From: Bacteroidota bacterium
GTDB lineage: Bacteria > Bacteroidota > Bacteroidia > Bacteroidales > Paludibacteraceae
DNA length: 64,000 nt
Direction of reading: 5' to 3'
NCBI GenBank assembly: GCA_030706455.1
Contig: JAUZOL010000001.1
Span: 62,001-126,000, forward strand
Under the pieces are notes generated by a model. It was given only the letters and a program-made list of their open reading frames with translations. It ran no database searches and was not told the origin of the DNA. How positions within the stretch are numbered: position 1 is the first letter of the stretch; each line of letters begins with the position of its first letter. Below, piece by piece: positions 4,284-29,264 of this stretch. A program made the translations under genes and the position numbers.

Positions 4284-6050
4284 CTACTCCCAACCCGGAT
4301 TTTGCCAGTTCTGACCTGTCAATGTCAACATTTTAGTGACTTCACTACGTTCAATTGGATAAAGCAAATATTTATCACTGGTAGTCACTCTGTCATCAAA
4401 CTTAAAACGATTATAGGTTGTAACCGATCCATTCACGGTAATATCCATACCTGTAATTACCTTAAAGATATCAAGCGTTTTCCAACGACGAACATCAAAG
4501 AAGCGTTTTCCTTCGAAAGCAAATTCGATACGACGCTCGTTACGGTATCTGGCTTCAAAGTCTGCCTTTGACAAGCCCGAGGGCAGATCCGGCATACCGG
4601 CTCTTGTCCGTATTGCATTGACAGCATCACGTGCTGACATGGTCATGCTACCTCCGATTGTAACTTTTGTATCAGGATTGCCTGCATTATAAGCCGCTTC
4701 TGCAAAATTCATATACAATTCAGCCAAGCGGAACAATCGGTTATAACCATCGTAATTTGCATATTTTGAAGATCTGAAGTCATTAAACTTTCTCAAATAA
4801 TAACCTGTGTGGGTATATTTTATATCCGTCCTGTTAATTCCTTCTGTTCCCCCTTCATATGTTTGAACCTTAACTCCAGTCGGTTGGTCCAAATAACGTA
4901 AAGCTCCGTTATAATAAATGGATGCGTAAAATCTCGGGTCACGATTGGCATAAGGATCTGCTGCATCATAACCGGAACCCACATTTATAACCGGTTGTAA
5001 ATGCTGGGCATCTTTGTAACCAGTAATGGCTTGTTGACCATTCGCCATCTCATATGCATCAATCAACTCTTGAGAAGGACAAATACCTGATTCGCTTACC
5101 CCATCATTAGTAGGCAAACCAAACCAAGACCAAACGGACAGCTGACCATTAACAGCATAAATTGATTCCTTATCCGTCTTTCGCTTATCATATGGCGACG
5201 CTAAGAAATAAGATGCATACGCATTTGGAGCATTTGGAGAAACGATATTCCAAAGAGAATAATCATGAGAAAGACACTGATATAAGGCATCTTTGGTTAC
5301 ATTCAAAGCCTCAGTCCAGGTAAGTGTACCATCGTTAAATAAAGGGCTAACCGCAAACAGAGCAGCTTCCGATTTAATAGCATAAGCTACGGCACGTGTC
5401 ATCATTCCATTTTGGCTATCTTCACTGAGACTCCATACAAAAGCCTGATCTGAAGTTGCGAGGGCTGCATCACAATCGGATAAGATTAGTTTTACGATGT
5501 CGCCAACTTTAGCTTTTGTTGCCTTCGAGTAGTCGTAATTAGTTCCCAAATCGGTGGTAACTAAAGGCACCTGTCCATATCGTTTAAACAGTTCTAGGTA
5601 ATAATATGCCCGTAGTACACGAGCCTGAGCTATCCAACCCGCTTTTTCATTATCTGTTGCAAAAGCAGTAGACGTCGGCATGTTTGCGATAAAGACATTA
5701 CATTTTCTGATTCCATCAAAGAATCGGGTCCAGGGTTGTCCATCAAAACTGTACGAGCCATAGTTATCCACAGACATACCAATAGAATACCAGTATCTGT
5801 AACGATCACCTGCATTTATCATACGTGAATCAACAGCTTCGTCCGTCAACCCTGCAATATCAAGGTCCATTCCATTGCGATAATTATAGCATGAATTTAA
5901 ATATCCCTGTACGCTGTTCCGATCTTTAAATACGTCTGCCATGGTGGTATGTCCATCATTATTCAAATCCAGAGCATTATTACATGATATAAAAAACATA
6001 GCACATACAATGGCAGATAAAATCTTATATATTTTCATAGTCATAGTCAT
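4284..6050 (-). CDS. SusD/RagB family outer-membrane glycan-binding lipoprotein (second pair)
   Basis: 588 residues. Lipoprotein signal with FFISC (Cys23); Met5 is an equally good start. The mature protein opens CNNALDLNNDG, like SusD family N-termini. Helical TPR-type segments follow, including ARVLRAYYYLELFKRYGQVP at about residue 145, a hallmark of the family. The C-terminal part has RNERRIEFAFEGKRFFDVRRW and ends GQNWQNPGW, also typical. SusD proteins sit as a lid over the partner SusC barrel. The partner is the gene immediately upstream, 24 bp away. Substrate is unknown. Confidence 0.95.
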   Translation of the reverse strand: MTMTMKIYKILSAIVCAMFFISCNNALDLNNDGHTTMADVFKDRNSVQGYLNSCYNYRNGMDLDIAGLTDEAVDSRMINAGDRYRYWYSIGMSVDNYGSYSFDGQPWTRFFDGIRKCNVFIANMPTSTAFATDNEKAGWIAQARVLRAYYYLELFKRYGQVPLVTTDLGTNYDYSKATKAKVGDIVKLILSDCDAALATSDQAFVWSLSEDSQNGMMTRAVAYAIKSEAALFAVSPLFNDGTLTWTEALNVTKDALYQCLSHDYSLWNIVSPNAPNAYASYFLASPYDKRKTDKESIYAVNGQLSVWSWFGLPTNDGVSESGICPSQELIDAYEMANGQQAITGYKDAQHLQPVINVGSGYDAADPYANRDPRFYASIYYNGALRYLDQPTGVKVQTYEGGTEGINRTDIKYTHTGYYLRKFNDFRSSKYANYDGYNRLFRLAELYMNFAEAAYNAGNPDTKVTIGGSMTMSARDAVNAIRTRAGMPDLPSGLSKADFEARYRNERRIEFAFEGKRFFDVRRWKTLDIFKVITGMDITVNGSVTTYNRFKFDDRVTTSDKYLLYPIERSEVTKMLTLTGQNWQNPGWE

Positions 6051-6074
6051 TAAATAAAAGCTTTTTCCGACATT

Positions 6075-9000
6075 TTAAAAATTAGCTCTAATACCGATAT
6101 TATACACTCTGTACACAGGTATCTGTTGATAGCTATCGGCTTCAGGACCAAAATCATTTGATTTCATATGATCCCATGTCAATAGATTCTGGCCACTCAA
6201 CACAAATCGCAACGACTCTACGCCAAAACGTTTTGTCATGTTTGTCGGAAGCGTGTACCCAAGTTCCACATTCTTCAGCCGAACATACGAGCGGTTATAA
6301 ACATAGTAATCGCTATACTGGAAGCTTGTTGAGGTTCCGGTTGTAAGAGCCGGGGCGGTAATCTTCTCTCCATTATTCCAACGTTCTTCAGTCCATGCAT
6401 TGCGATGCAAAGAGCCGTAAACGCCGTCATAAGCATTTTCCCATACTCCCATGCCTGAATACACAGAGTTCCACTTTCCAACACCTTCCACCAAAACACT
6501 AAGATCAAATGATTTGTATTTAAGAAGGCCGTTAAACCCAAATGTATAATTAGGAATTGAACCGTTTGTTATCGGAGCTTTATCCTTCTCATCTATAGTG
6601 CCGTCATGATTCAAATCCTGATATTTCAAATCACCTACACGAGGAGTTCCAAAAGAATAAGTAGGACCTTTGGCAATTTCGTTTTTGAAATTGTAAAAAC
6701 CATTACCATTGCTATAATCTACCAAATAACCGAATACCTGTCCGTAAGAGAATCCCTGATCACGGAACGGATAAGCATAATCTGCTCCCCGGTTAACCTC
6801 GCCGTCGTATATTACTTTGTTCTTGTTATAGGCCACATATCCACCGACTTTGAATTCAAGTCCGTTCTTAAGAGCTTTTCCTACAGCCAGAGAGATTTCG
6901 TAACCTTTATTTTCATAAATCCCGGCATTAGTAGGTGGATATTGACCCAAGTCAACACCTTGATATGTTGGCGTCAAAGCAACAGATGTGATAACGGCAT
7001 TATTGAGTTTTTCACGGAACAAGTCTACTGACAAGCTTACCCAGTTAAAGAGTCCCAAATCAACACCGACATTGGTTTTCTTGGTTTTTTCAGCTCTTAA
7101 ACTCGGGTTTCCAAGGCTATTTTCATTCACGATGTAACCCAATGCGCCGATAGGGCCACCACCATCAACTTTCACATTATCTTCATAAGAATAGCGTCTC
7201 AATCCGTTTTGGTCATTGGCAGTCATACCGTATGCTGCTCTCAATTTAGCCAGGCTAATAAACGACAGATCTTTCATAAACGATTCATTAGATACAATCC
7301 ATGCAGCCGACACAGCAGGAGTTGTGGTCCATCTGGTCTTTGCAAGATATTGCTCACTGCCAGAATATCCACAATCCAGTCTTAATGCATATTTATGAGC
7401 ATAGTTGTAAGAGACGTCGACTCCGGAATTAATGTGCATATAAGGCATAGGTTCTGTTGTTTCAAATCGCTGATAAAACGAATATGCCATTGCACTCAGG
7501 TGATGGTTATTCCAGTCGCGTTTATAATCCACTTTTCCTCTCAGGTATAAATCATAAAACTCACATGTATTTACGCCATAATTCAACCCGGAATTATCAG
7601 AAGTTCCTTTCCTCACAAAATCCAGCTTTGTTGGGTCTGTAGTCCTTGTATACAATCTGTGATCTTTGGTCGTAGAAAGAGAATTTGTGGTATTGGACAT
7701 ATAAGAAACATCACCGGTAACACTTAATCCTTTCGTAAGAAAATCCAAATCGGCCTTTACTCCAAAGTCTGAATAAATATTTGTAACTGTGTGATTGATA
7801 TATCCGCTACGGTTGATCATTCCAAACGCTGAATCGCCTTCCTTCTGAGTAACAATTACTTCGTTTGCCGGATAACCAGCCCCCTCAACCGTTGGGGTAA
7901 CGGGGCCATATTCAGTAGAGGGCATTGTAAACAGGTGAGGATAAATATTACCTAAAAATCCTGAGCCGGGAACATGTTCTTTTTTAACATTTCCTGCCAC
8001 GTTCATATAGGCGCTCAAAAACTTGTTTATCTTAACATCCAGATTAGTTCTGAAATTGAACCAATACCATGCATTATTGGGGTTATATTTATCGTTCGAC
8101 TCTGTCTTATACGGGCCATCTGTATGCATCAGGTTAAGATTTGAGAAATAGGTAACATGCTCATTACCTCCGGTCACATTAACACCCATACGCTGCATCT
8201 GCTGAACATTTTTCATTAGCAAGGAATACCAATTGGTATTGGGATACAGAGGATCATTGCCAGCGCGATATTTGGCTATTGCATCATCTGAATAAAACTT
8301 GTTTTTCCCTAAGCCGTCATTATAAGCAGCTTCATTACGCAGCGTTGCATATTCTGCCGAATTGATAAATACCGGTTTTGTGGTAACCTGTTGTAATGAT
8401 TCGTCAAAATTAAAACTGACTTTTATTTTACCCGGGACTCCTCGTTTTGTTCTGATCAACAACACGCCATTAGATCCTTCAGCTCCATACAATGCCTGCG
8501 ATGCCGCATCCTTCAATATGGTAACCGATTCAATTTCATTTGCTGAAATATACGACATACTATAACTCTCAGTCCCCGGATAACATACGACTCCGTCTAT
8601 TACAACCAAAGGCGGATTGTTATGTATACTGGAAATGCCCCGGATATGAAGATCATAATTGGCCCGACCAACTTCACTATAGGTCTCATGAGCTGTTAAA
8701 CCCGATAAATTACCGGCCAGAGCCTGAGTTAATATGGAAACCGGAGCTTTTGCCAGCTGATTGGAAACAGCAGTTGATGCAGCTCCCGAAAAATCGGTTT
8801 TAGACATTGTCGTATAGCCCAAATCTATAGTTTCGTCCATCTGGCTGATATCAGCCTTCATCTCCACATTCATTCCATCCTGCACACTGTTTTTCGTACT
8901 CTTATATCCTAATAAAGAAAAACCGTATGAATTGTCTTCTTGTGTCTTCATCACGGAAAACTTTCCGTTAACATCAGTAACCCCTATGGGTGTACCTTTT

Positions 9001-17750: not shown

Positions 17751-20573
17751 TCATAATGTCACTTCAACTTTTGTTCCTGTATAACGTACCACTTGAGCAG
17801 AAGCATTGGAAGTGCCAATAGGCACAATGCGGAAAGTGCGGTTCAGCAACATGCCGGTGAATTGTCCCTGACGTTCACCGATAACCAATTGGCGTGTGGT
17901 TTCGTTATAGTCGAAACTAATGGTAGAGAAAGCACCTTTTTCGTAGTTGTAGTTGTCTCCTTCATCTTCGTACAGGCTGAATTTGCCATCTTTACCCTGA
18001 TATACACGTATCTCCATGTCTTCACCTTTTTTCTCGGAAGCATATTGCATTACATCACCTATGGGCAAAATAGTTCCAGCGGGAACGAACAATGGGATAC
18101 GTTCGAGTGGTGCGTCTGCTATTACCTTCTGACCACCGGCAATTTGTTTGTTGCTATAAAAATCAAACCATTGAGAGCCTGCTGGCAAATAAACCTCTTT
18201 CGTACGGGCTTTGTAGTTGTAAACCGGACAAACCATGATTCCGGAACCAAACATAAACTGGTCGCTCACGCCATAAGTTTGTTTATCGGAAGTATAACTC
18301 ATTACCAAAGAGCGCATAATGGTGTAATCTTTGTGATAAGCCATTCCTGCCAACGAATAAATATAAGGCATCAGGCGGTAGCGCAATTCATCGTAGTAAA
18401 CCAGACTTTTATAGACAGGATGTCCTTCAGGTGCCAGATTATATATTTCGCGAAGCGGGAACTGACCGTGACTGCGGAACAGCGGAGCAAACGAACCAAA
18501 CTGGAACCATCGAAGGTTCAATTCGCGCCATTCGTTCAGGTCGGCATTTTCTTGTCCCGTTTTATCGAACAGGCGTTGACCTTCTTCGTATCTTTTCTCC
18601 ACACAGAAACCGCCAATATCCATTGTCCAGAATGGAATGCCCGACATGGCAAAGTTCAGTCCGGCAGAAATCTGCGCCTTCATATCTTCCCAACGGGTAG
18701 CAATATCACCACTCCAGGTAGCTGTAGAATAGCGTTGCAAACCTGCAAAACCCGAACGGGTCAACAGGAATACGCGCTTGTTGTTGTCCACTTCGCGTTG
18801 TCCGTTGTAGATTGCATCAGCATTCTCCAGTGCATAGGCATTAAAGTATTTCCATGAAGAGCCCAAAGCCGTTGGGCCACACAGCTCTTTGCGATAGGTC
18901 ATATCGGTACAGTCCCTCACATTTGGTTCCGAAGCATCCATCCACCAGGCGTCAAAGCCTTTGGTGTAAATATTTTCTTTCATTTGATTCCAGAACAGTT
19001 TGCGAGCACCGGCACTGTATGCATCGTAGAAAGATCCCACATAACCAGGACCAACCCAATCGCGGATGCTGTCTTTTGCAGCCTGCATATACATCCAGCC
19101 TTTTTGTTCGAATTGCTTGAAGTGATCGGTGGTGACATAGAATTTAGGCCATACCGAAATCATGATATGGGCGTTTTGTTTGTGCAACGAATCCACCATA
19201 CCTTTTGCATCGGGGAAACGGTCAAGATCGAACTTGTGGCTTCCCCAAGCATTTTCAGGCCAGTAGTTCCAGTCGAGCACGATATTGTCAATAGGAATAT
19301 TGCGTTTGCGATATTCCGACATAACCCCAAGCAATTCGGCTTGAGTTTTGTATCGCTCGCGGCTTTGCCAGTAACCCATGGCCCATTTAGGCATAATGCT
19401 GGCTTTACCGGTAAGGGTACGGTAACCACCAATCACATCGTCCATGTTTTTACCTGCAACGAAGTAGTAATCAATCTTATCTCCCATTTCGGACCAGAAA
19501 GAGATATTTCCGTTCTTCTCAATCGGGCTGGACGACAGCGCTTTTAAGCCTATGTACGAAACACCGCCATCGGGTTTCCATTCCAATTTCACTTTGTTGC
19601 GTTTACCTTTTCCCAAATGGCAGGTAAAACGGAAAGTATTCGGATTCCATGAAGTTCTCCAGCGCTCAAGTACTACCAACGAGTCGTTGATCCAAACTTT
19701 GGTATAGCCGGCATAGTAAAGGCTAAATTTGTAAGTATCGGTAACAGGCGATACGATAGAGCCTTCCCACACAATTGATCCATCATTGAAATCAAAATCC
19801 CCGGGAAATTTCTTTACTGTTTTCAGGTTTTCGTAGTCAATAGCATTCTCTTTGCGAACGATAGACGGTTTGCTTTTTTGAATATAAGTGGCTGTAAGGT
19901 TGCCTTCGTTACCCTCTTTATCGAAAAGTGTAAACTGATTCAGATCTTTATAGTCGCGGGGATCGCCATATTTGCTTTGCGAATAATTGTCCCAAAGAAT
20001 ACCGTAATTGGCCGTTGACACAATAAATGGCACCGACACCTTGGTGTTATACTGGAAAAGATCTTCGCTTTTGTTCTTGTAATTGAAATCGTCCGACTGG
20101 TGCTGTCCCAATCCGTAAATAGCTTCGCCCTGCGTGCCTTTGAAAATCTGCTGCATGGTATAGCCGTGGTCGTTTTGAGCCGTAAAAGGCTTGAAGCTCT
20201 TTCCTTTTGGCATCTCCTCCAGCAAGGCTTTGCCCGACTTGTCGAAAAACGACACTTCGCCACTTGCCAATGCCACTTTCACGGTAAGTTCATCGGTGGT
20301 TAACGACGCGAATTTGCTGTTGGTTGCTACCTGAAAATTAGTTTTGGTAGCCGCATTGGGCACCACACACAAACTGCCCACCGAAGGCTCCTCTGCTGAA
20401 GGAAGTGCTTGCACACGGATAATCCTGCTATTAATAACTGAAATCTCGATTGTTTTTGCAGCCCCGTTTTTAGGCAACACGCGCATACCGTTCGATAGTG
20501 TTTGTACCGGACTTGCGGCACACAAGCTTCCTGCAAACCAAAGAAGCATTAAGAGGAAAGGAATTCGTTTCAT
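17751..20573 (-). CDS. GH31 alpha-xylosidase-type enzyme with PA14 insert
   Basis: 940 residues. Signal peptide ends SLCAA. The N-terminal beta-sandwich is interrupted by a PA14 domain (about 220-350; SIVWEGSIVSPVTDTYKFSLY). The GH31 barrel has the nucleophile Asp546 in WWMDASEP and the probable acid/base Asp623 in WSGDI. PA14-bearing GH31 proteins characterised from Cellvibrio and Bacteroides xyloglucan systems are alpha-xylosidases that remove the xylose from the non-reducing end of xyloglucan oligosaccharides. The neighbours (GH42, GH3 and the BACON-GH5 upstream) support that reading over alpha-glucosidase. Substrate assignment is inference from architecture and context. Confidence 0.92.
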   Translation of the reverse strand: MKRIPFLLMLLWFAGSLCAASPVQTLSNGMRVLPKNGAAKTIEISVINSRIIRVQALPSAEEPSVGSLCVVPNAATKTNFQVATNSKFASLTTDELTVKVALASGEVSFFDKSGKALLEEMPKGKSFKPFTAQNDHGYTMQQIFKGTQGEAIYGLGQHQSDDFNYKNKSEDLFQYNTKVSVPFIVSTANYGILWDNYSQSKYGDPRDYKDLNQFTLFDKEGNEGNLTATYIQKSKPSIVRKENAIDYENLKTVKKFPGDFDFNDGSIVWEGSIVSPVTDTYKFSLYYAGYTKVWINDSLVVLERWRTSWNPNTFRFTCHLGKGKRNKVKLEWKPDGGVSYIGLKALSSSPIEKNGNISFWSEMGDKIDYYFVAGKNMDDVIGGYRTLTGKASIMPKWAMGYWQSRERYKTQAELLGVMSEYRKRNIPIDNIVLDWNYWPENAWGSHKFDLDRFPDAKGMVDSLHKQNAHIMISVWPKFYVTTDHFKQFEQKGWMYMQAAKDSIRDWVGPGYVGSFYDAYSAGARKLFWNQMKENIYTKGFDAWWMDASEPNVRDCTDMTYRKELCGPTALGSSWKYFNAYALENADAIYNGQREVDNNKRVFLLTRSGFAGLQRYSTATWSGDIATRWEDMKAQISAGLNFAMSGIPFWTMDIGGFCVEKRYEEGQRLFDKTGQENADLNEWRELNLRWFQFGSFAPLFRSHGQFPLREIYNLAPEGHPVYKSLVYYDELRYRLMPYIYSLAGMAYHKDYTIMRSLVMSYTSDKQTYGVSDQFMFGSGIMVCPVYNYKARTKEVYLPAGSQWFDFYSNKQIAGGQKVIADAPLERIPLFVPAGTILPIGDVMQYASEKKGEDMEIRVYQGKDGKFSLYEDEGDNYNYEKGAFSTISFDYNETTRQLVIGERQGQFTGMLLNRTFRIVPIGTSNASAQVVRYTGTKVEVTL

Positions 20574-20598
20574 TCTTTATTATGATTGTTCATTAAAA

Positions 20599-22701
20599 TT
20601 ATTCGCTCCATACCAGAACACCGGCAGGCTTCAAGGTTTTATCGCCAACAAGAACTTTTGCAGTAGCAGGGATATTCATCGCATAGTCGGTCGACGAATA
20701 GTTCACCGCCACATAAAATCCATCGCGCCAGTACACATACACACCTTCGGGATAATTTTCGGTGGTAGCACCCACGCTTTGATATGCATGCCGCAAAATA
20801 TCTTTTTCCAGCTTCGAATCGTCGGTATCCACGCCGATATAGGTTACCGAGCCTTTTCCGAATTTATGACGCACGACAGCCGCTTTGCCTTTGTAGAACT
20901 GGTTGTCATAAGTAGCCAGCACTTCCGTTCCCTTATCAGCATCGAGCAAGTCGCCCCAATTGTTCCAGTTGTATGTAGTGCCTTGCATGGCAATGGAGCC
21001 TTTGGCGTAGCCCGAAAGCATGTCGGTCGCTTTTACATGTGCCCCGATTAGGCCGGAAATAGGAGCTCCCCATTCGCCTTCCCAGAAATGACCGGCGCGG
21101 TCTTTAGTCGCAGTACGGCAGGTCAAAATCAGATTACCGCCATTGCTCACATATTCCGTCCATTTTTTTACCAGAGCAGAATCGGCCAATTCGTAAGCCG
21201 GCACAATCAGCACTTTGTATTTCGAAAAATCAGCTGTTTCGGGAATCACATCTGTTGGCGCACCCAGCGATTTTGCCATTTCAAGAAATTTGACGGGATA
21301 ATTCCATGTGTCCCATTGGTAGGTTTGTTTCTGGCGATCAATTGTCCAATAATTTTCCAGATTCCAAAGGATGGCGGTAGAACGAGCGGCCAGCTTTTCA
21401 GGCATTTTCGCGTCCGGTTTGCACACCTTTCGCAGCTCTTTGATTTCTTTTATAAACTGCATGTATTCCTCGCCTCCAGGCGATGGAGTTACGCCGTCGG
21501 TTTTGATAACGCCGGAATGATATTGCTCCGAACTATACAAAATCTGGCGGAAACGGTAGGAACAAGCCAGTTTACCGCCGGCTGCAAAAGAGTGATACAA
21601 CCACATGCGTACGGTACCGGGCAAAAGCAATGGATTGTAGCCACCCCAATTTACAGGGCCAGGCTGAATTTCCATCACACCACTTACACCGCCCACAGCT
21701 TTGTAAAATTCGGAAGCAAAAAGAATTACCTTGCTATTTCCCAACCGAAATCCGGTTTCGCCAATATTGTCGTTACCTCCGTTAGGGTAAGCCGTATAAC
21801 TTGCAAAATCGAGTTTTTTTGTTCTCAAAGCATCAGCACCGGTACAAACCGCAGTATAATTGGTCGTAATATACTGCTGAGCCAAGATGTATTTACGAAG
21901 TGTGCCCGCCTGGAGGTCAAGAAAATCGGCTTGTGCATCGGCTTCGTAGCGTTTGAAGTCGAGCAGTGCGTGAGGGTTATTGCCCCACCAGCCCACCAGA
22001 TTAGTATTGGGGATAATAACCTGCCCAAAATCGTTAAACCACTGACTCCAGAATGCAGCACCCCAGGCTTTGTTTAGCTCATCAATGGTTTTGTATTTAT
22101 TTTTCAGCCAAAGGCGAAAAGCCTCCTGAGAAGAAGGGCTGAAGTCGGAAATTGCAGGAGGTTCGTTATCTACCTGCCAACCAATCACGGATTTGTTCTG
22201 TCCGTAACGTTTGGCCATTTCGGCAACAATCTGCGTTGTAAATGCGCGATATTTTTCGTTCACCACCGAACCCAATCCGCGCGTTCCGTTCTCGGCACGA
22301 ATGTAATGCCCATCCATAATGAAAGTTTCAGGATATTTCAGTCGCATCCAGGTAGGCGTAGTTGCAGAGGGTGTACACATCACAATTTTGAGATGATATT
22401 TTTCGCAAAGTTTCACCACCCTATCCAGCCATTCAAAATTGTATTGTCCTTCTACGGGTTCCATTTTGTACCATGCAAATTCGGCCAGATGGACGAATTC
22501 GTACCCCATATCGGCAATCTTCTTTATGTCGCGTTCCCATTGGTTTTCGGGCCAATGTTCCGGGTAGTAATAAATTCCGGTGGTGATTAGATCTTTTGCA
22601 GGAAAAAACCGGCTATTTTCCTTTGTCTGAGAATTTGCAACCTGGTTGACTATTGACACGAACATCAGTATCAATATCAGATAAAAGTGTTTCAGATTCA
22701 T
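20599..22701 (-). CDS. GH42 beta-galactosidase
   Basis: The open frame extends to 22830, but the signal peptide (LKHFYLILILMFVSIVNQVANS) begins at ATG 22701, so I place the start there, giving 700 residues. GH42 marks: GIYYYPEHWPENQWE near the barrel start, acid/base Glu180 in WQVDNEPP, and nucleophile Glu344 in VMEIQPGPVNWG. The trimerisation (beta-galactosidase middle) domain follows (VLIVPAYELAD), then a short C-terminal beta domain. It would remove beta-galactose from galactosylated side chains. It is the first gene of the unit containing GH31 and GH3, preceded by its own promoter candidate at 22828-22835. Confidence 0.92.
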   Translation of the reverse strand: MNLKHFYLILILMFVSIVNQVANSQTKENSRFFPAKDLITTGIYYYPEHWPENQWERDIKKIADMGYEFVHLAEFAWYKMEPVEGQYNFEWLDRVVKLCEKYHLKIVMCTPSATTPTWMRLKYPETFIMDGHYIRAENGTRGLGSVVNEKYRAFTTQIVAEMAKRYGQNKSVIGWQVDNEPPAISDFSPSSQEAFRLWLKNKYKTIDELNKAWGAAFWSQWFNDFGQVIIPNTNLVGWWGNNPHALLDFKRYEADAQADFLDLQAGTLRKYILAQQYITTNYTAVCTGADALRTKKLDFASYTAYPNGGNDNIGETGFRLGNSKVILFASEFYKAVGGVSGVMEIQPGPVNWGGYNPLLLPGTVRMWLYHSFAAGGKLACSYRFRQILYSSEQYHSGVIKTDGVTPSPGGEEYMQFIKEIKELRKVCKPDAKMPEKLAARSTAILWNLENYWTIDRQKQTYQWDTWNYPVKFLEMAKSLGAPTDVIPETADFSKYKVLIVPAYELADSALVKKWTEYVSNGGNLILTCRTATKDRAGHFWEGEWGAPISGLIGAHVKATDMLSGYAKGSIAMQGTTYNWNNWGDLLDADKGTEVLATYDNQFYKGKAAVVRHKFGKGSVTYIGVDTDDSKLEKDILRHAYQSVGATTENYPEGVYVYWRDGFYVAVNYSSTDYAMNIPATAKVLVGDKTLKPAGVLVWSE

Positions 22702-22827
22702 TGAAATGCAATTATTATAAGTATTAGAAGGTTCAAAAAACTGACATATCGCCACATCACCGCTCAAAATTGAGACAAAAGATCTGGCAACAGTGTTTTC
22801 TCTTATTTGGCTAAAGCAGATGGAATA

Positions 22828-22835
22828 CAAAAGTA
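22828..22835 (-). promoter_or_regulatory. candidate Bacteroidota -7 element for GH42-GH31-GH3
   Basis: Minus-strand TACTTTTG matches TAnnTTTG exactly. It lies about 127 bp before the chosen GH42 start and after the terminator hairpin at 22919-22955, the right order for a new transcription unit. I see no clear -33 TTTG at the usual distance. Confidence 0.45.
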
Positions 22836-22918
22836 TTTTAATTTTTTGGTTCCCATATTATCCAAATGTTTCTCATATGGTATCATTTTCGCTCTTTACG
22901 CGGTTTATCCAAATAAAG

Positions 22919-22955
22919 AAGCCTATCCTGAAGCATAATACTTCTGGATAGGCTT
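22919..22955 (-). terminator. terminator hairpin after the esterase genes
   Basis: AAGCCTATCCTGAAG (22919-22933) pairs with CTTCTGGATAGGCTT (22941-22955) with one mismatch in 15. The minus-strand 3' flank is CTTTATTT, T-rich but interrupted. It would close the long operon that starts at susC 60343. Confidence 0.65.
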
Positions 22956-23033
22956 TACACGTTCAAGAAACACGGTTGGAGTATCTTATCGGATAATAAT
23001 CGTCCTTTTTTAAACCCCGATAAAAAAATCAAA

Positions 23034-23081
23034 TTATTTTCCGAATAACAAACCTTTCGCTTTCATCCATTTTTCACAGAC
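23034..23081 (-). pseudogene. fossil 3' end of a third esterase copy
   Basis: The minus-strand frame reads HVCEKWMKAKGLLFGK then stop. Both intact esterases upstream end CRKWMEVRGLLVK, so Cys, Lys, Trp, Met, Gly, Leu, Leu fall in register. The similarity stops exactly where the palindromic repeat at 23082-23177 begins. It has no start codon and about 15 codons, so it is not a gene but the tail of a deleted paralogue. Confidence 0.6.
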
Positions 23082-23177
23082 ATGGGACAAGCGACTTCTC
23101 AGTCGCTTGGTAACATTAAAAAAATGTACCTATTGCATGGAATACCATTCAAGCGACAGGAAAGTCGCTTGTCCCAT
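23082..23177. repeat. REP-like palindromic element, copy 1
   Basis: Terminal arms ATGGGACAAGCGACTT (23082-23097) and AAGTCGCTTGTCCCAT (23162-23177) are perfect 16-bp inverted repeats. Each arm also folds locally: CAAGCGACT-TCTC-AGTCGCTTG and CAAGCGAC-AGGAAA-GTCGCTTG. It begins 31 bp after the esterase stop at 23208. Confidence 0.85.
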
Positions 23178-23207
23178 TCATTTGCTCATCCCCTTAAGCC
23201 ACTTTTA

Positions 23208-24143
23208 CTACTTTACCAAAAGTCCTCTCACTTCCATCCATTTGCGACAGGCCTCAGGCCATGTTGATTCAGTCCCTGTATTTTTCTTTCCCAATCCATA
23301 TCCATGGCCACCCCGTTCATAGATATGAAGTTCGCACGGAATGTTGTGCTTTTGCATTGCCAAAGCATACTCAATGCTATTTTGTACCGGAACTGCTCCA
23401 TCATCCATTGAATGAACCATAAAAGCCGGAGGTGTGTTAGCGTTAACCTGCAAAGCATTAGAGAAATGCTTCAGTATTTCCGGAGTTGGATTCTTGCCCA
23501 GCAAACTTTCTCTGGAACCCCAATGAGTTATAGCCGAATCCATGGAAATTACAGGATAAATCAACAACGAAAAGTCGGGACGTGCACTGGTTGTGTCTTT
23601 TGATTCATAAACCTTTTCGTCGAAATGGGTAGAAACCGTAGAGGCAAGGTGACCTCCGGCCGAAAAGCCCATTATGCCAATTTTATGCGGATCAATACCC
23701 CATTTTGTTGCATTGCGGCGTACAATGCGCATAGCTTCCTGACCGTCCTGCAACGGAGCTATAGATTTGTTTTGCATAATGGCATCGTCGGGCAAACGAT
23801 AGTGAAGAACAACAGCCGTTACACCCAACTGGTTGAGCCATTTGGCCACTTCCGTACCTTCGCCAACATAAGACAGGCCATAATATCCACCTCCCGGACA
23901 GACCACAACTGCCGTTCCGGTATTTTTGTCGGCAGGTGCCGGATAAACCTGAATGGTCGGTTTTGTCACAAACCTGATTTTGATCCAGTAAGACGAATCA
24001 ACTATTTCTTTATAGTTGGTATTGGGAATTTCCCCGGGAACTTTACCATTCCAGATATCAATTACTTTGCTCTGACTAAAAACACTGGCTGCAATCATTA
24101 TGAGGCCAGTTAACACGAATACGTTCTTTTTGAAATACATCAC
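23208..24143 (-). CDS. alpha/beta-hydrolase carbohydrate esterase, second copy
   Basis: 311 residues with a signal peptide (VFVLTGLIMIAASVFSQ). Alpha/beta-hydrolase of the secreted acetyl-esterase type: oxyanion segment VCPGGGYYG, nucleophile Ser161 in GFSAGG, acid Asp247 or Asp248 in HSMDDGAVP, and His280 in GGHGYG. Probable action is removal of O-acetyl groups from imported oligosaccharides; xyloglucan galactose is often acetylated, and related esterases occur in xyloglucan loci. It is a tandem paralogue of the gene at 24296-25237, alike through the whole length and for the 31 bp after the stop. A repeat copy and a paralogue remnant follow it. Substrate is inferred. Confidence 0.9.
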   Translation of the reverse strand: MMYFKKNVFVLTGLIMIAASVFSQSKVIDIWNGKVPGEIPNTNYKEIVDSSYWIKIRFVTKPTIQVYPAPADKNTGTAVVVCPGGGYYGLSYVGEGTEVAKWLNQLGVTAVVLHYRLPDDAIMQNKSIAPLQDGQEAMRIVRRNATKWGIDPHKIGIMGFSAGGHLASTVSTHFDEKVYESKDTTSARPDFSLLIYPVISMDSAITHWGSRESLLGKNPTPEILKHFSNALQVNANTPPAFMVHSMDDGAVPVQNSIEYALAMQKHNIPCELHIYERGGHGYGLGKKNTGTESTWPEACRKWMEVRGLLVK

Positions 24144-24200
24144 GTTAAACTATTTTGTAACACATCTATTGATTAACTCCGAAATCAGACTAACTTCTAC

Positions 24201-24265
24201 ATGGGACAAGCGACTTCCCTGTCGCTTGGAAATGATTCGAGCGACTGCGAAGTCGCTTGTCCCAT
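24201..24265. repeat. REP-like palindromic element, copy 2
   Basis: The same 16-bp arms as copy 1, ATGGGACAAGCGACTT (24201-24216) and AAGTCGCTTGTCCCAT (24250-24265), with a shorter middle. Inner hairpins CAAGCGAC-TTCCCT-GTCGCTTG and CGAGCGACT-GCGA-AGTCGCTTG. It also begins 31 bp after the stop of the esterase gene upstream (24296). Confidence 0.85.
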
Positions 24266-24295
24266 TCATTTGCTCATCACCTTAAGCAGCTTATA

Positions 24296-25237
24296 CTACT
24301 TTACCAGAAGCCCTCTCACTTCCATCCATTTACGGCAGGTCTCAGGCCAGGACGATTCCGTATCTGTCGATTTGCCCATACCGTAACCATGCTTGCCGGT
24401 CGGATAGAGGTGAAGTTCGCAGGAGATATTTGCTTTGTGCAATGCCAGGGCATAGTTGATGCTGTTTTGCACCGGAACTGCATCATCGTCCAGTGAATGT
24501 ACCATAAAAGCAGGCGGCGTTTTGTCGTTCACCTGCAACTCATTTGAATAGTGTTTCACCATCTCCTGAGTTGGTGAATTGCCCAGCAGATTTATCCTCG
24601 ACCCCCAATGTGTAATGTCGCCATTCATGGAAATTACCGGATAAATGAGTATCGAAAAATCAGGTCGGGCGCTCATTTGGTCGTCAGACTCATACACTTT
24701 GTCGTTATAAAGAGTAGAAAGAGTTGCCGCTAAATGACCTCCAGCAGAGAATCCCATGATTCCGATTTTCGCGGGATTGATGCCCCACTCTTTCGCATGA
24801 CTTCGTACCAGTCGAATTGCCCGTTGCCCGTCCTGCATAGGCCCGATTGTTTTGTTTTCCATAATACTATCATCGGGCAAACGATATTTCAGCACAAAAG
24901 CAGTTACGCCCAATCTGTTCAACCATTTAGCCACCTGCTCGCCTTCGTGCTTAATGGCCAGTCCGCCATAAGCTCCACCGGGGCAAATAATAACAGCAGC
25001 ACCTGAAGCTTTTGCCACAGGAGCCGGATAGAAATAAAGGCAGGGATTGACAATGGAATGCTTATCCACCCAGCCGGCGGCCGTATCTACCATCTGTTTG
25101 AAATGATTGCTGTATTTCGCTCCGGGAATTTTCCCATTCCAAAGATCAATCACTTTGGTTTGAGCTGATAAACCCCCGCTTATTGTCATCAGGCATATAA
25201 ATGCCAACATTGTTAGTTTTAGTTTGGATACCATCAT
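24296..25237 (-). CDS. alpha/beta-hydrolase carbohydrate esterase, first copy
   Basis: 313 residues with a signal peptide (LKLTMLAFICLMTISGGLSAQ). Catalytic set as in the downstream paralogue: ICPGGAYGG oxyanion loop, Ser164 in GFSAGG, Asp250 or Asp251 in HSLDDDAVP, His283 in GKHGYG. Its ATG overlaps the TGA of the upstream GH2 gene (ATGA), so the two are translationally coupled. The two esterases diverge most at the N-terminus and around residues 50-65, which may reflect different acetyl positions. Family assignment is strong; acetyl-xyloglucan esterase is a contextual inference, with acetyl-xylan or acetyl-mannan as alternatives. Confidence 0.9.
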   Translation of the reverse strand: MMVSKLKLTMLAFICLMTISGGLSAQTKVIDLWNGKIPGAKYSNHFKQMVDTAAGWVDKHSIVNPCLYFYPAPVAKASGAAVIICPGGAYGGLAIKHEGEQVAKWLNRLGVTAFVLKYRLPDDSIMENKTIGPMQDGQRAIRLVRSHAKEWGINPAKIGIMGFSAGGHLAATLSTLYNDKVYESDDQMSARPDFSILIYPVISMNGDITHWGSRINLLGNSPTQEMVKHYSNELQVNDKTPPAFMVHSLDDDAVPVQNSINYALALHKANISCELHLYPTGKHGYGMGKSTDTESSWPETCRKWMEVRGLLVK

Positions 25238-27045
25238 TTATTCTTATAAAATTCATGCATTATATACCAAGCTTTCTTTTTTTCTCCTTTTTCAGAGAGT
25301 AAACCTTTGCGGTTGTAACCGTTCTGGTACACCTGATTCATACGTCCCAACGATCTGTAATCGAACAATATCCACGGACACACCCCACACAGATTGGGAA
25401 TTGTACCAAACAATTCTATTTGATTCTTATAAATTTGCTCCTGATATTCTTCAGACCAATAAGCAGCTTCGTCGGTTGGTCCGCTATTGCTACCAGACAA
25501 AGCTTCACCTCCAAATTCGGAGATAAACACCGGCTTGTCGGGGAAGGCTATTTGCCACTTGGTTTCCGACGGCTGTCCCTGCCACGGATCATACCAACCG
25601 ATGTATTCGTTAATGGCAATCAGGTCGGAATACTTATAAAGCGGATCCCACACGTTGAATGTGTTATCTTTATATTCCTGTGTATTAATCACATGCACTA
25701 CCAGGCGAGTAGAGTCTAATGTCCGACATTTGGCTGTTAAGCTGATAAGTGCCTCGTTACGGTTAGGAGTTCCGGGGTACGTTTCGTTGGAAAGGCTCCA
25801 CACAATCACTCCGCAGCGGTTTTTGTCGCGACACATCATTTCGTTGAGCATTCGTTCCAACTTCGGTGGCACAACACTATCCAAAAACTGAATATGCTGA
25901 AAGACAGGAATTTCATCCCAGATCATCAAACCCATCTTTTCGGCTTCACGAATCGTATTTTCGCTATGTGGATAATGCGCCAATCTGACAAAGTTGCAAC
26001 CCAATTCTTTGGCTGCATTCAGCAAAATGCGGGCATCGTTAATCAAATAAGCACGAGCCTTTTTGTAGGGATTTTCTTCGTGAATATTGACAGCTTTCAG
26101 AAAAACCGGTTTGCCGTTAAGCAATACTTTATTTCCTTTCACTTCAATACTTCTGAAACCAATAGTGTCTACCAAGGTATCGCTTTCGCTTTCCACAATT
26201 ACCTTGTAAAGCTTCGGGGTTTCGGGCGACCAGAGTTTGAAGCGGGCAGAAAACTCAACTTTTGCAAGTCCTTTTTCGTCTGTTCGGGCTTTACACAGTA
26301 GGTTCAGCTCCGGTATTTTTACTTTAATGTTTTGAGCAGCTTTTGCGCCATTCATTTGCACCCAACCCAGCACCTGGTTCAGGCAGCCTTTTTTCAACTG
26401 AATGAAATAATCCTCAATATACGAGCTATTGGTTTCAATCAGATCAACATCGCGGGTAATGCCACCGTAATTAAACCAATCGTAACCGGTACCCGGCAAT
26501 CCGTTTGCCTGGCGGTTATTGTTGACCTTAACAACAATGGTATTACTTCCGGTTTTCACCTTGTCGGTAATCTCGAACTGGAACGGGGTAAAACCACCTT
26601 CGTGGCTACCTATCTTTTCGCCATTCAGATAGACATCGTCCAAATAATTAACCGCTCCAAAATGAAGAAAAAGCCGTTTGCCGGATTGAAGCGTATTATT
26701 AAACTGCTTTTTATACCAGACAGTTCCTTCAAAATATGTAAGTTCGCACAATTGCGAATTGAAATCGCCAGGCACTTTCAGATAAGGTCCACCATCAAAC
26801 GAATATTCTACAAAATCAGTCTTCTTTTGCGGTTTCTTTTCCTGCCAAACCTGTTTTCCCTCGCCAATTCCGGTTGGATCGAGTATCACTTGCCAATTGC
26901 CGTTCAGGCTCGTTTTGTGCCGGTTTAACACATTCACCATAGCAGTTTGAGCATGCAACCCACCTGTTAAATGCATTAGGCAAAGAAGAGCAACTATCTG
27001 AATCCTGAATAGCGGTTTCTTTCTAACAGTCGTTATATTTTTCAT
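25234..27045 (-). CDS. GH2 beta-glycosidase (glucuronidase/galactosidase-like)
   Basis: 603 residues with a signal peptide ending GGLHAQ. Compact three-domain GH2: jelly-roll (about 45-200; VYLNGEKIGSHEGGFTPF), Ig-like middle, and TIM barrel. Acid/base Glu421 in WSLSNETYP, nucleophile Glu520 in VFISEFGGEA. The DWFNYGGITRDV segment and lack of extra C-terminal domains resemble beta-glucuronidase-type GH2 proteins more than the two longer GH2 enzymes in this locus. Beta-galactosidase or beta-glucuronidase are both possible. It overlaps the first esterase by 4 bp and follows GH29 by 28 bp. Confidence 0.88.
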   Translation of the reverse strand: MKNITTVRKKPLFRIQIVALLCLMHLTGGLHAQTAMVNVLNRHKTSLNGNWQVILDPTGIGEGKQVWQEKKPQKKTDFVEYSFDGGPYLKVPGDFNSQLCELTYFEGTVWYKKQFNNTLQSGKRLFLHFGAVNYLDDVYLNGEKIGSHEGGFTPFQFEITDKVKTGSNTIVVKVNNNRQANGLPGTGYDWFNYGGITRDVDLIETNSSYIEDYFIQLKKGCLNQVLGWVQMNGAKAAQNIKVKIPELNLLCKARTDEKGLAKVEFSARFKLWSPETPKLYKVIVESESDTLVDTIGFRSIEVKGNKVLLNGKPVFLKAVNIHEENPYKKARAYLINDARILLNAAKELGCNFVRLAHYPHSENTIREAEKMGLMIWDEIPVFQHIQFLDSVVPPKLERMLNEMMCRDKNRCGVIVWSLSNETYPGTPNRNEALISLTAKCRTLDSTRLVVHVINTQEYKDNTFNVWDPLYKYSDLIAINEYIGWYDPWQGQPSETKWQIAFPDKPVFISEFGGEALSGSNSGPTDEAAYWSEEYQEQIYKNQIELFGTIPNLCGVCPWILFDYRSLGRMNQVYQNGYNRKGLLSEKGEKKKAWYIMHEFYKNK

Positions 27046-27073
27046 TGACCTGGCTATCGTTTCTGTAAATATT

Positions 27074-29149
27074 TTATTCGGTTATCACATCCACATCGGC
27101 ATACCCCGCCACATTATCACCTGACGTGTTCTTCAACGCACGGAGTTTGATATATCTAGTCGTTACCGGCGCGAATTTTTTAGTCTGTAACAATGGATTG
27201 TTTTTGATATTCGAAAACTCGCCCTGATCCACTATTTTCCAGTTCACATTATCGTCCGATACATAAAATTCGTACGTGGTGATGATGCCTGAACTCCACC
27301 TGTTTTGATCCGGCAGGTATTTGAAGCCGGACACGTTGTACTTATTTCCCAAATCGATAACCAAATCTATTGGCATCTTATTATCTCTCTGGTGCCATAC
27401 GCTGGCCGGATCTCCATCAATAACAGCAGCGGCTTTTTCGTCGCTTATTCCAATCAATTTCCAGTTTTTCTTCGAAATATCAAATTTTTCGATGCTCACC
27501 GGACTGCTTTTGCCCGAAGTTGGGTCATAGCTGATTGCTTTTATTTCCAGTTTTCCATCCGCTGAGAAAGGACCTATATATTTGGTTGATTTTGCAGTAG
27601 GAGTGCTACCATCCAGTGTGTAATAAAAAATCGGACCTATATCATTTGTGTTTATGGTCACTTGGCCTGCCTGATTACGGATAATAACCGGTGCATTGAG
27701 AAATACCGGAGCGTTATAAATGCCAATATTAGAGATTGCCGGACTGCATTTTGAATCGATGATGGTGAAACGTATCTGCGTTGCCTTTACAGCCGGAAAG
27801 CGCAATATACGCTTGTAACCGATAGTAGTTGCTTTGGCTAATTCTTTCCAGACTCCATCCACAAACGCCTCGACAGTAAAAGCCTTAACACGCTGTCCCA
27901 ACCGGATATATTCCTGTGCCAGAAAGCGGTTGAACAAAGTCGGCTTGCCTAAATCGATGGTCAACGAACCCGTTTTTGTATTGTCATCGGTAGCCCAATA
28001 GGTATTTTTGTTGCTATCAACTGCCATTGCTGCCGAAAATCTGCCGGATTTTCCACGAACAGTGGAAGCTGAAGCTTTCTTATTCAATGCCAGATTAACG
28101 GCAAACGATTCGTTTACAGCTTTGGCAAATGCAAGGGCATTTTTTTCGTCGGTCGGATGTATCAATCCATTGGGCATGATGGGAAAATTGAGCAACATGG
28201 AGCCGTTGCGTCCCACAGAATTGTAGTACAGATCCATCAGTTGAGGCACGGTTTTCACCTTGCCGTCTTCACTCGGATGATAGAACCACTCGGGACGAAT
28301 GGACGTGTTTACTTCGGCTGCCACCCACGCATTGCCGTTTTCCACACCGTAATGCAACATATTCCAGGGCACTTCGCCGGTAGCATTCAACAAGCTCCAG
28401 TTGGTTTCGCCCACATAACCATCTTCTGTTCCCACCCAGCGAAGGTCGCCACGGTCGCCGCCATCGTTCCAAATCACACATTTAGGCTGCAATTTATGGA
28501 TCAAAGCATAGGTATTTTTCCAATCGTAGTAGGTAGTGCGGTCGATGGTGCGGGTTTCGTTTGCGCCGCCATAATAACCATTACCGCCATTAGCTCCATC
28601 GAACCAAACTTCAAAAATTTCGCCGTAGTTGGTCAAGAGTTCAGTAAGTTGGTTACGGAAGTAAGTGATATATTCAGGCTTTCCATAATCCTTGCTATTC
28701 CTGTCCCAGGGAGACAGGTAAATTCCAAGTTTCAGACCATATTCTTTACAGGCGTCGGCCATCTCGCGCACCATATCGCCTTTCCCGTTTTTCCACGGAG
28801 CGTTCTTAACCGAATATTCGGTGTATTTAGACGGCCAAAGACAAAAACCGCAGTGGTGCTTTGCCGTAATGATAATCCCTTTCATTCCCGCTTCTTTGCA
28901 AACACGCGCCCATTGCCGGCAATCTGCCTTTTCCGGGTTAAACAACTTAACATCTTCATTTCCAAAACCCCATGACTGGTCGGTGTAAGTATTCAACGAG
29001 AAATGGATAAATGCGTATCGTTCCATTTGCTGCCACCTCATCTGATTCTCTGTCGGAACCGGACCACATGGAGCCGGAGCTTTTACCTGAGCATTCAGCC
29101 CCATTGTACACACGGAAAGAATTACAGAATAAAAAATAGTTTTAATCAT
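27074..29149 (-). CDS. GH29 alpha-L-fucosidase with two F5/8-type domains
   Basis: The frame opens at 29191, but the signal peptide (IKTIFYSVILSVCTMGLNAQ) starts at ATG 29149, giving 691 residues. Catalytic barrel: FIHFSLNTYTDQSWGFG, IITAKHHCGFCLWPS, and nucleophile Asp184 in FEVWFDGANG. After the barrel come an F5/8 type C domain (SASTVRGKSGRFSAAMAVD), a chitobiase-C-terminal-like unit (IFYYTLDGSTPTA), and a second F5/8 domain (DGDPASVWH). This modular layout is seen in GH29 enzymes acting on alpha-1,3/1,4-linked fucose, distinct from the single-domain type. It would strip fucose; the exact linkage is inferred. Confidence 0.9.
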   Translation of the reverse strand: MIKTIFYSVILSVCTMGLNAQVKAPAPCGPVPTENQMRWQQMERYAFIHFSLNTYTDQSWGFGNEDVKLFNPEKADCRQWARVCKEAGMKGIIITAKHHCGFCLWPSKYTEYSVKNAPWKNGKGDMVREMADACKEYGLKLGIYLSPWDRNSKDYGKPEYITYFRNQLTELLTNYGEIFEVWFDGANGGNGYYGGANETRTIDRTTYYDWKNTYALIHKLQPKCVIWNDGGDRGDLRWVGTEDGYVGETNWSLLNATGEVPWNMLHYGVENGNAWVAAEVNTSIRPEWFYHPSEDGKVKTVPQLMDLYYNSVGRNGSMLLNFPIMPNGLIHPTDEKNALAFAKAVNESFAVNLALNKKASASTVRGKSGRFSAAMAVDSNKNTYWATDDNTKTGSLTIDLGKPTLFNRFLAQEYIRLGQRVKAFTVEAFVDGVWKELAKATTIGYKRILRFPAVKATQIRFTIIDSKCSPAISNIGIYNAPVFLNAPVIIRNQAGQVTINTNDIGPIFYYTLDGSTPTAKSTKYIGPFSADGKLEIKAISYDPTSGKSSPVSIEKFDISKKNWKLIGISDEKAAAVIDGDPASVWHQRDNKMPIDLVIDLGNKYNVSGFKYLPDQNRWSSGIITTYEFYVSDDNVNWKIVDQGEFSNIKNNPLLQTKKFAPVTTRYIKLRALKNTSGDNVAGYADVDVITE

Positions 29150-29264
29150 CGTATTCAAGTTATTGTATTTGTTGCCTTTAATACTATGCACACATAAAAA
29201 ATTGATTTTTCAGTTCACCTACTCTGGGTGCATTGGTTCCATTTTAATTCACCGAAACCCTTTG

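Follow-up and report, generated by a model that had tools for sequence, protein, structure and literature searches.

A stranded gene tail beside a REPIN-like palindrome as the probable displaced C-terminus of a tandem esterase in a Bacteroidota polysaccharide-utilisation locus

Two tandem esterase genes, E2 and E1, of a Paludibacteraceae genome are each followed by a palindrome, and behind the second palindrome stands a short frame that reads like one more esterase end. An earlier note on this DNA (64,000 nucleotides of contig JAUZOL010000001.1, here called the window) read this frame as what is left of a third gene that a deletion between palindromes had removed. The comparisons described here do not uphold that view. 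Very probably, the remnant is the original tail of the downstream gene E1, displaced when the 3' end of its upstream neighbour E2 was copied into it together with a palindrome.

The two genes belong to a polysaccharide-utilisation locus on the minus strand of the window, with GH2, fucosidase, GH42, GH31, rhamnosidase and GH3 enzymes and SusC/SusD-like proteins. That they are esterases in tandem, as had been noted, was confirmed: E2 (24296-25237, minus strand, 313 aa, an alpha/beta hydrolase) lies upstream and E1 (23208-24143, minus strand, 311 aa) downstream, and both match the BD-FAE family (PF20434). They are old paralogs, since each has separate orthologs in locus L114 of G001, which is of the same genus and the closest relative with both genes, and in loci L115, L119 and L191; the E2 orthologs share 89% amino acid identity in L114 and 90% in L191. 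Each gene is followed by a spacer (24266-24295 after E2 and 23178-23207 after E1, both minus strand), the second being a copy of the first with 26 of 30 bases identical; the conservation described earlier holds, and the length is 30 bp in both, not 31. Behind the spacer comes a palindrome, of 65 bp after E2 (24201-24265), with a short linker of 11 bp, and of 96 bp after E1 (23082-23177), with a different linker of 40 bp (23110-23149). Single-stranded DNA folding is strong in both (z -10.6 and -10.0). The identical 16-bp arms that had been described are the outermost 16 bp, which indeed do not differ between the palindromes; the arms themselves are longer, 26-28 bp, and 89-92% complementary.

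Identity along the genes changes sharply near their 3' ends. E1 and E2 of the window agree in 566 of 879 bases (64%) up to position 882 and in 46 of 51 (90%) after it. For E1 against its ortholog in L191 the figures are 738 of 882 and then 30 of 51 bases, and against that in G001 750 of 882 and then 34 of 51, which is 84-85% up to 882 and 59-67% over bases 883-933. A maximum chi-square scan placed a breakpoint at bases 880-886, with 52 of 276 sites of E2 type to the left and 19 of 22 to the right, and none of 2000 shuffles was as extreme. The same breakpoint came out of each of four runs, for which three E1 genes (L191, G001, L116) and two E2 genes served as references, at 0/2000 each. Other peaks of the scan were found in E2 of the window at 570 (0/2000), in L167 at 585 (6/2000) and in the control E1 of L191 at 705 (1/2000), and are read as uneven rates along the gene; on the E1 genes of G001 and L115, 95 and 70 of 2000 shuffles did as well.

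On this profile E1 is a chimera, an E1 body that bears an E2-type end of the last 16-17 codons, with E2-type sites starting by about 23258 (gene position 886). The donor tail of E2, its last 13 codons from the cysteine codon plus the stop (24296-24337, minus strand), is identical to its E1 counterpart in 38 of 42 bases. What E1 and E2 share recently is only about the last 50 coding bases, the spacer and the palindrome. The proposed duplication of a unit is thus retained for the 3' end, spacer and palindrome and given up for the whole gene plus palindrome, the genes being old paralogs with 64% nucleotide identity up to base 882. Between the copies, four of the 42 bases of the tail and four of the 30 of the spacer differ, somewhat below the 15% by which E1 of the window differs from that of G001, so the copying was not very recent.

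Just past the second palindrome the sequence reads TGTGAAAAATGG..., which in the orientation of E1 encodes 14 codons, CEKWMKAKGLLFGK, and a stop (23034-23078, minus strand). Its resemblance to an esterase C-terminus was borne out. When the 127,936 six-frame 11-mers of the window were scored with a profile built on five E1 tails, CEKWMKAKGLL ranked first (48.8, with both real gene tails at 43.0 each and the best unrelated 11-mer at 24.0), and against an E2-tail profile it came third (45.0) after both gene tails (56.75), the best unrelated one scoring 23.5. The tail begins within 2-3 bases of the palindrome edge, close to where it had been put; the esterase homology itself starts at the cysteine codon, and the preceding H and V derive from the edge of the palindrome. 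The remnant has just 42 coding bases. Over 33 bases it matches E1 of L116 in 28, E1 of L118 in 27, the present E1 end in 23 and E2 in 21, and it fits the E2 tail of L115 and the E1 tail of G001 equally (25 of 33 each). Tails of the CRKW type were found in two of eight E1 orthologs (L119, L167) and a CEKW tail in one E2-like gene (L169); tail type alone is insufficient to assign a gene to E1 or E2. Since tail type is ambiguous and the scan also peaks in controls, the case for displacement is carried chiefly by L191 and the identity profile, and not by the tail residues or the scan alone.

Locus L191 comes from genome G574, which belongs to another family of the same order, and its E1 runs unbroken into ...TKACEKWLEVKGLLSGK-stop, with a 3' untranslated stretch and then a terminator-like repeat behind it. 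The part homologous to the stranded tail, CEKWLEVKGLLSGK-stop, is contiguous with the gene. In the window, the stranded tail, the next 67 bases (22967-23033, minus strand) and the terminator-like inverted repeat (22919-22955, minus strand) align with this E1 end with only single- and two-base gaps, and none of 1000 shuffles aligned as well for tail and 3' stretch; the repeat also lies within a stretch that aligns with G001. The single large difference at the E1 end is 171 extra bases in the window (23080-23250, minus strand), which comprise the 13 terminal codons of E2 type with their stop, then the spacer, the palindrome and two further bases. No palindrome of this type was found in the 14 kb of L191 that were read, allowing one mismatch per arm. 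The stranded tail is interpreted as E1's own original C-terminus because the E1 of L191 ends uninterrupted in a homologous tail and 3' stretch.

The similarity between L191 and the window extends beyond the esterases. Over 17751-29191 of the window six genes were matched, and their proteins are 84-95% identical in spite of the different family, compared with 86-94% for the same genes in G001, which is of the same genus. This suggests horizontal transfer of the locus.

Copy number was compared by tblastn in 18 distinct related loci, within the stretch fetched for each and with duplicate rows counted once (L168 = L117, L170 = L116, L192 = L115, L038 = L114). Three esterases were found in none of the 18, two in four (L114, L115, L119, L191) and one in 13 (L116, L117, L118, L120, L121, L122, L123, L039, L040, L167, L169, L171, L193). 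Where a contig is short, as with L040 (3.8 kb) and L116 (6.7 kb), a further copy may lie past its ends, and the count leaves out other matching genomes, among them G324 with a more distant tandem pair. In the remaining locus, L102 of G005, both esterases are missing except for a deletion fossil (5835-6184) in which the GH2 gene upstream of them is joined near codon 92 to E2 codons 256-298. This is a different piece from the remnant; a relative with the remnant and no esterase, the case that the earlier note had set against its own reading, was not seen. In L117 and L119 E1 lacks a stop at its usual end and stays open beyond it, so that the frames measure about 595 aa; by eye, this extension resembles a second esterase domain.

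When the remnant and its 3' stretch were used as DNA query against 358 genomes of the family, 34 of them, the window's own included, matched at E <=0.01. Outside the window's own genome the matches are short (19-61 bases), and the single esterase match is the gene tail of L169 (75%). Viral contigs scanned with E2 gave nothing. At 6124-7056 of L169 (genome G308) an E2-like esterase ends in a tail that resembles those of E1 (CEKWLKVKGFLDLQKM), which may reflect another tail exchange, in the opposite direction. The breakpoint scan of this gene gave 0/2000 with one reference pair and 174/2000 with another, and no hairpin of this type was found in the L169 stretch.

The palindromes were also followed in the eight genomes of the genus that were examined. 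The hairpin AAGCGAC-N(4-8)-GTCGCTT has 12 exact matches in G000, the window's own 4.0-Mb draft genome, 10 in G001 and nine in G005, and none in the other five; the counts leave out mismatched copies, and a reversed control pattern gave 0. One match in each of the three genomes is the same 21-mer, AAGCGACCAAATAGGTCGCTT, and was taken for something else. Several hairpins form inverted pairs with varying linkers, as judged by eye in eleven stretches. Within the eight genomes the E1 palindrome has a single relative of full length, 86% identical over 96 bases. It lies at the 3' end of E1 in G001 (L038 8645-8741 against window 23082-23177), behind the stop codon, inverted relative to the gene and at a different site; other matches are to arms or short pieces of the linker. 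The linker alone aligns inverted with this relative, in 29 of 35 bases (0/1000 shuffles as good). Linker orientation was discarded as a guide to the direction of copying, the E1 and E2 palindromes aligning about equally well direct (41.2) and inverted (41.6). In the gap between E2 and E1 of G001 (L038, 7412-7687) another palindromic element (GCCCCTAAAGGGGA ... TCCCCTTAAGGGGATTTAGGGGC) takes the place that the REPIN-like palindrome has in the window. A descent of the spacer from ancestral E2 downstream sequence was considered as well and found little footing: the E1 spacer has an 11-base exact match to this gap (9/1000 shuffles), a weak hint, and the E2 spacer matches in 10 of 11 bases (121/1000).

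REPINs or BIMEs are described as pairs of REP hairpins, one inverted relative to the other, with a linker between them (PMC3116915, PMC8266576), usually in more than 100 copies per genome (PMC2817692). The elements of the window resemble them in that their hairpin arms (AAGCGAC...GTCGCTT) form an inverted pair, separated by a linker that varies, and are found at several genome sites. They are unlike them in number, with 12 exact hairpins in a 4.0-Mb draft, and in the foot of the hairpin, which is GGGAC and not a GTAG or CGTC tag. A subclass of Bacteroidetes TnpA-REP proteins with the motifs NH[LIV]H and YIH[QN]NP is described along with atypical REPs that have no GT[AG]G tag (PMC6006769). A Y1_Tnp search of the draft G000 gave eight matches. 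Three of these loci encode proteins with motifs similar to those two, and the hairpin, with one mismatch allowed in each arm, is absent from all eight (1.9-3.3 kb each), so that no cognate RAYT adjoining a palindrome was found in this search. Rfam gave no match at the gathering threshold in the window. Because the tag is absent, copies are few and none of the eight Y1_Tnp loci carries the repeat in the flanks examined, the palindromes are called REPIN-like and are not classed as REPINs.

Ectopic recombination between tandem paralogs is well known, and much of what is seen here resembles interlocus gene conversion: a short, sharply bounded patch of E1 carries the sequence of the neighbour E2 within a strongly diverged background, and is closer to the paralog than to the ortholog with a significant breakpoint (0/2000 shuffles, with some controls peaking elsewhere). 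The difference is that E1's own segment was pushed downstream and not replaced, with a net insertion of 171 bp. Going by its title, a 1988 paper by Higgins, McLaren and Newbury raises gene conversion as a route of evolution of intergenic palindromes (REPs); the present case is set apart in that coding sequence and a stop codon moved along with the palindrome. No paper on a displaced tail of this kind was found by title or abstract opening, a search that says little about what is in print overall.

As an overall explanation we hold with good confidence that the E1 tail was displaced by a copied E2 end with its palindrome. The ancestral E1 would have ended in a tail like that of L191 (...A-CEKWMKAKGLLFGK-stop), with the 3' untranslated stretch and the terminator-like repeat directly behind. 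Some 16-17 codons from the 3' end of E2, with the stop and the 30-bp spacer, and the REPIN-like palindrome would then have been copied into E1 just before its last 14 codons, giving E1 an E2-type C-terminus and stop and leaving the native tail as a scar behind the stop codon. What is observed directly is an E2-type patch with a sharp boundary, the displaced tail, a relative whose E1 is uninterrupted, and the lack of a third copy in the inspected loci. For the route we lean slightly towards a single copying event, which would have started by strand exchange within the homologous coding sequence of the esterases and stopped, or switched, at the edge of the palindrome, a switch that hairpins or matching arms would favour. 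A plain transfer of the entire E2 cassette would need a later change of linker, because the E1 palindrome has a linker unlike that of E2, and this counts against it. Either E2 had a long linker that was later shortened, or the element was at E1 before the tail was copied, or the arms recombined.

The second of these options leads to a history in two steps that is a serious possibility, if one we would not bet on. A REPIN-like element would have inserted in E1 before its last 14 codons and severed the tail, and a later gene conversion from E2, with homologous coding sequence as one anchor and the matching palindrome arm as the second, would have restored a C-terminus and a stop. It accounts both for the linker of the E1 palindrome and for a stranded tail that starts within 2-3 bases of the palindrome edge, and palindromes of this type do occur at other sites in three of the eight genus genomes; on the other hand it takes two events, no interrupted and unrepaired E1 has been seen, and none of the eight transposase loci has the repeat in the flanks examined. 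No sister strains with and without the insertion were found.

Explanations by gain and loss of whole genes fare worse. A transient duplication of the larger E2-E1 pair, followed by two deletions, could also leave an E1 body with an E2 tail and a stranded E1 tail, and the GT after the E1 palindrome equals the two bases after the E2 palindrome, as expected if more sequence downstream of E2 had come along. Such an agreement of two bases arises by chance about once in 16, three rearrangements would be required and none of the 18 loci has kept the duplication; we regard this course as improbable. Still more so is the third copy of the earlier note, a gene-plus-palindrome unit grown to three with one deleted between palindromes. 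It was right that the tail is genuine and starts at the palindrome edge. Tail and 3' stretch belong to E1 in L191, however, none of the 18 loci has three copies, and a deletion between palindromes would spare part of a gene only if one of the palindromes lay within it. An assembly artefact between similar 3' ends is hardly credible, even in a draft of 340 contigs, the copies differing (38 of 42 tail bases and 26 of 30 spacer bases identical, palindromes of 96 and 65 bp) and so not being one sequence used twice.

For the esterase, the exchange of tails was most likely close to neutral, since the patch affects no more than the far C-terminus, past the GHGYG motif that presumably holds the catalytic His. 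The value of the case lies in an unusually readable scar: within 2.2 kb stand the donor and the recipient, the patch, the boundary element and the segment that was displaced, and a relative shows the site free of the insertion. It also advises caution, as a gene tail beside a repeat may be the displaced end of the adjoining gene and not the fossil of a lost one. A broader reading, which we think unlikely, is that the palindromes are boundaries of mobile 3'-end cassettes: a palindrome that is copied would take with it the last codons, stop and spacer of the preceding gene, and neighbouring paralogs would in this way repeatedly swap C-termini. An exchange that recurs, with palindromes as its limits, would hold more interest than plain ectopic recombination, and at present it rests on one clear case. 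If the cassette reading were true, stranded native tails would be signatures that can be searched genome-wide, and if displaced tails are common beside REPIN-like palindromes they would provide a countable trace of the spread of these elements.
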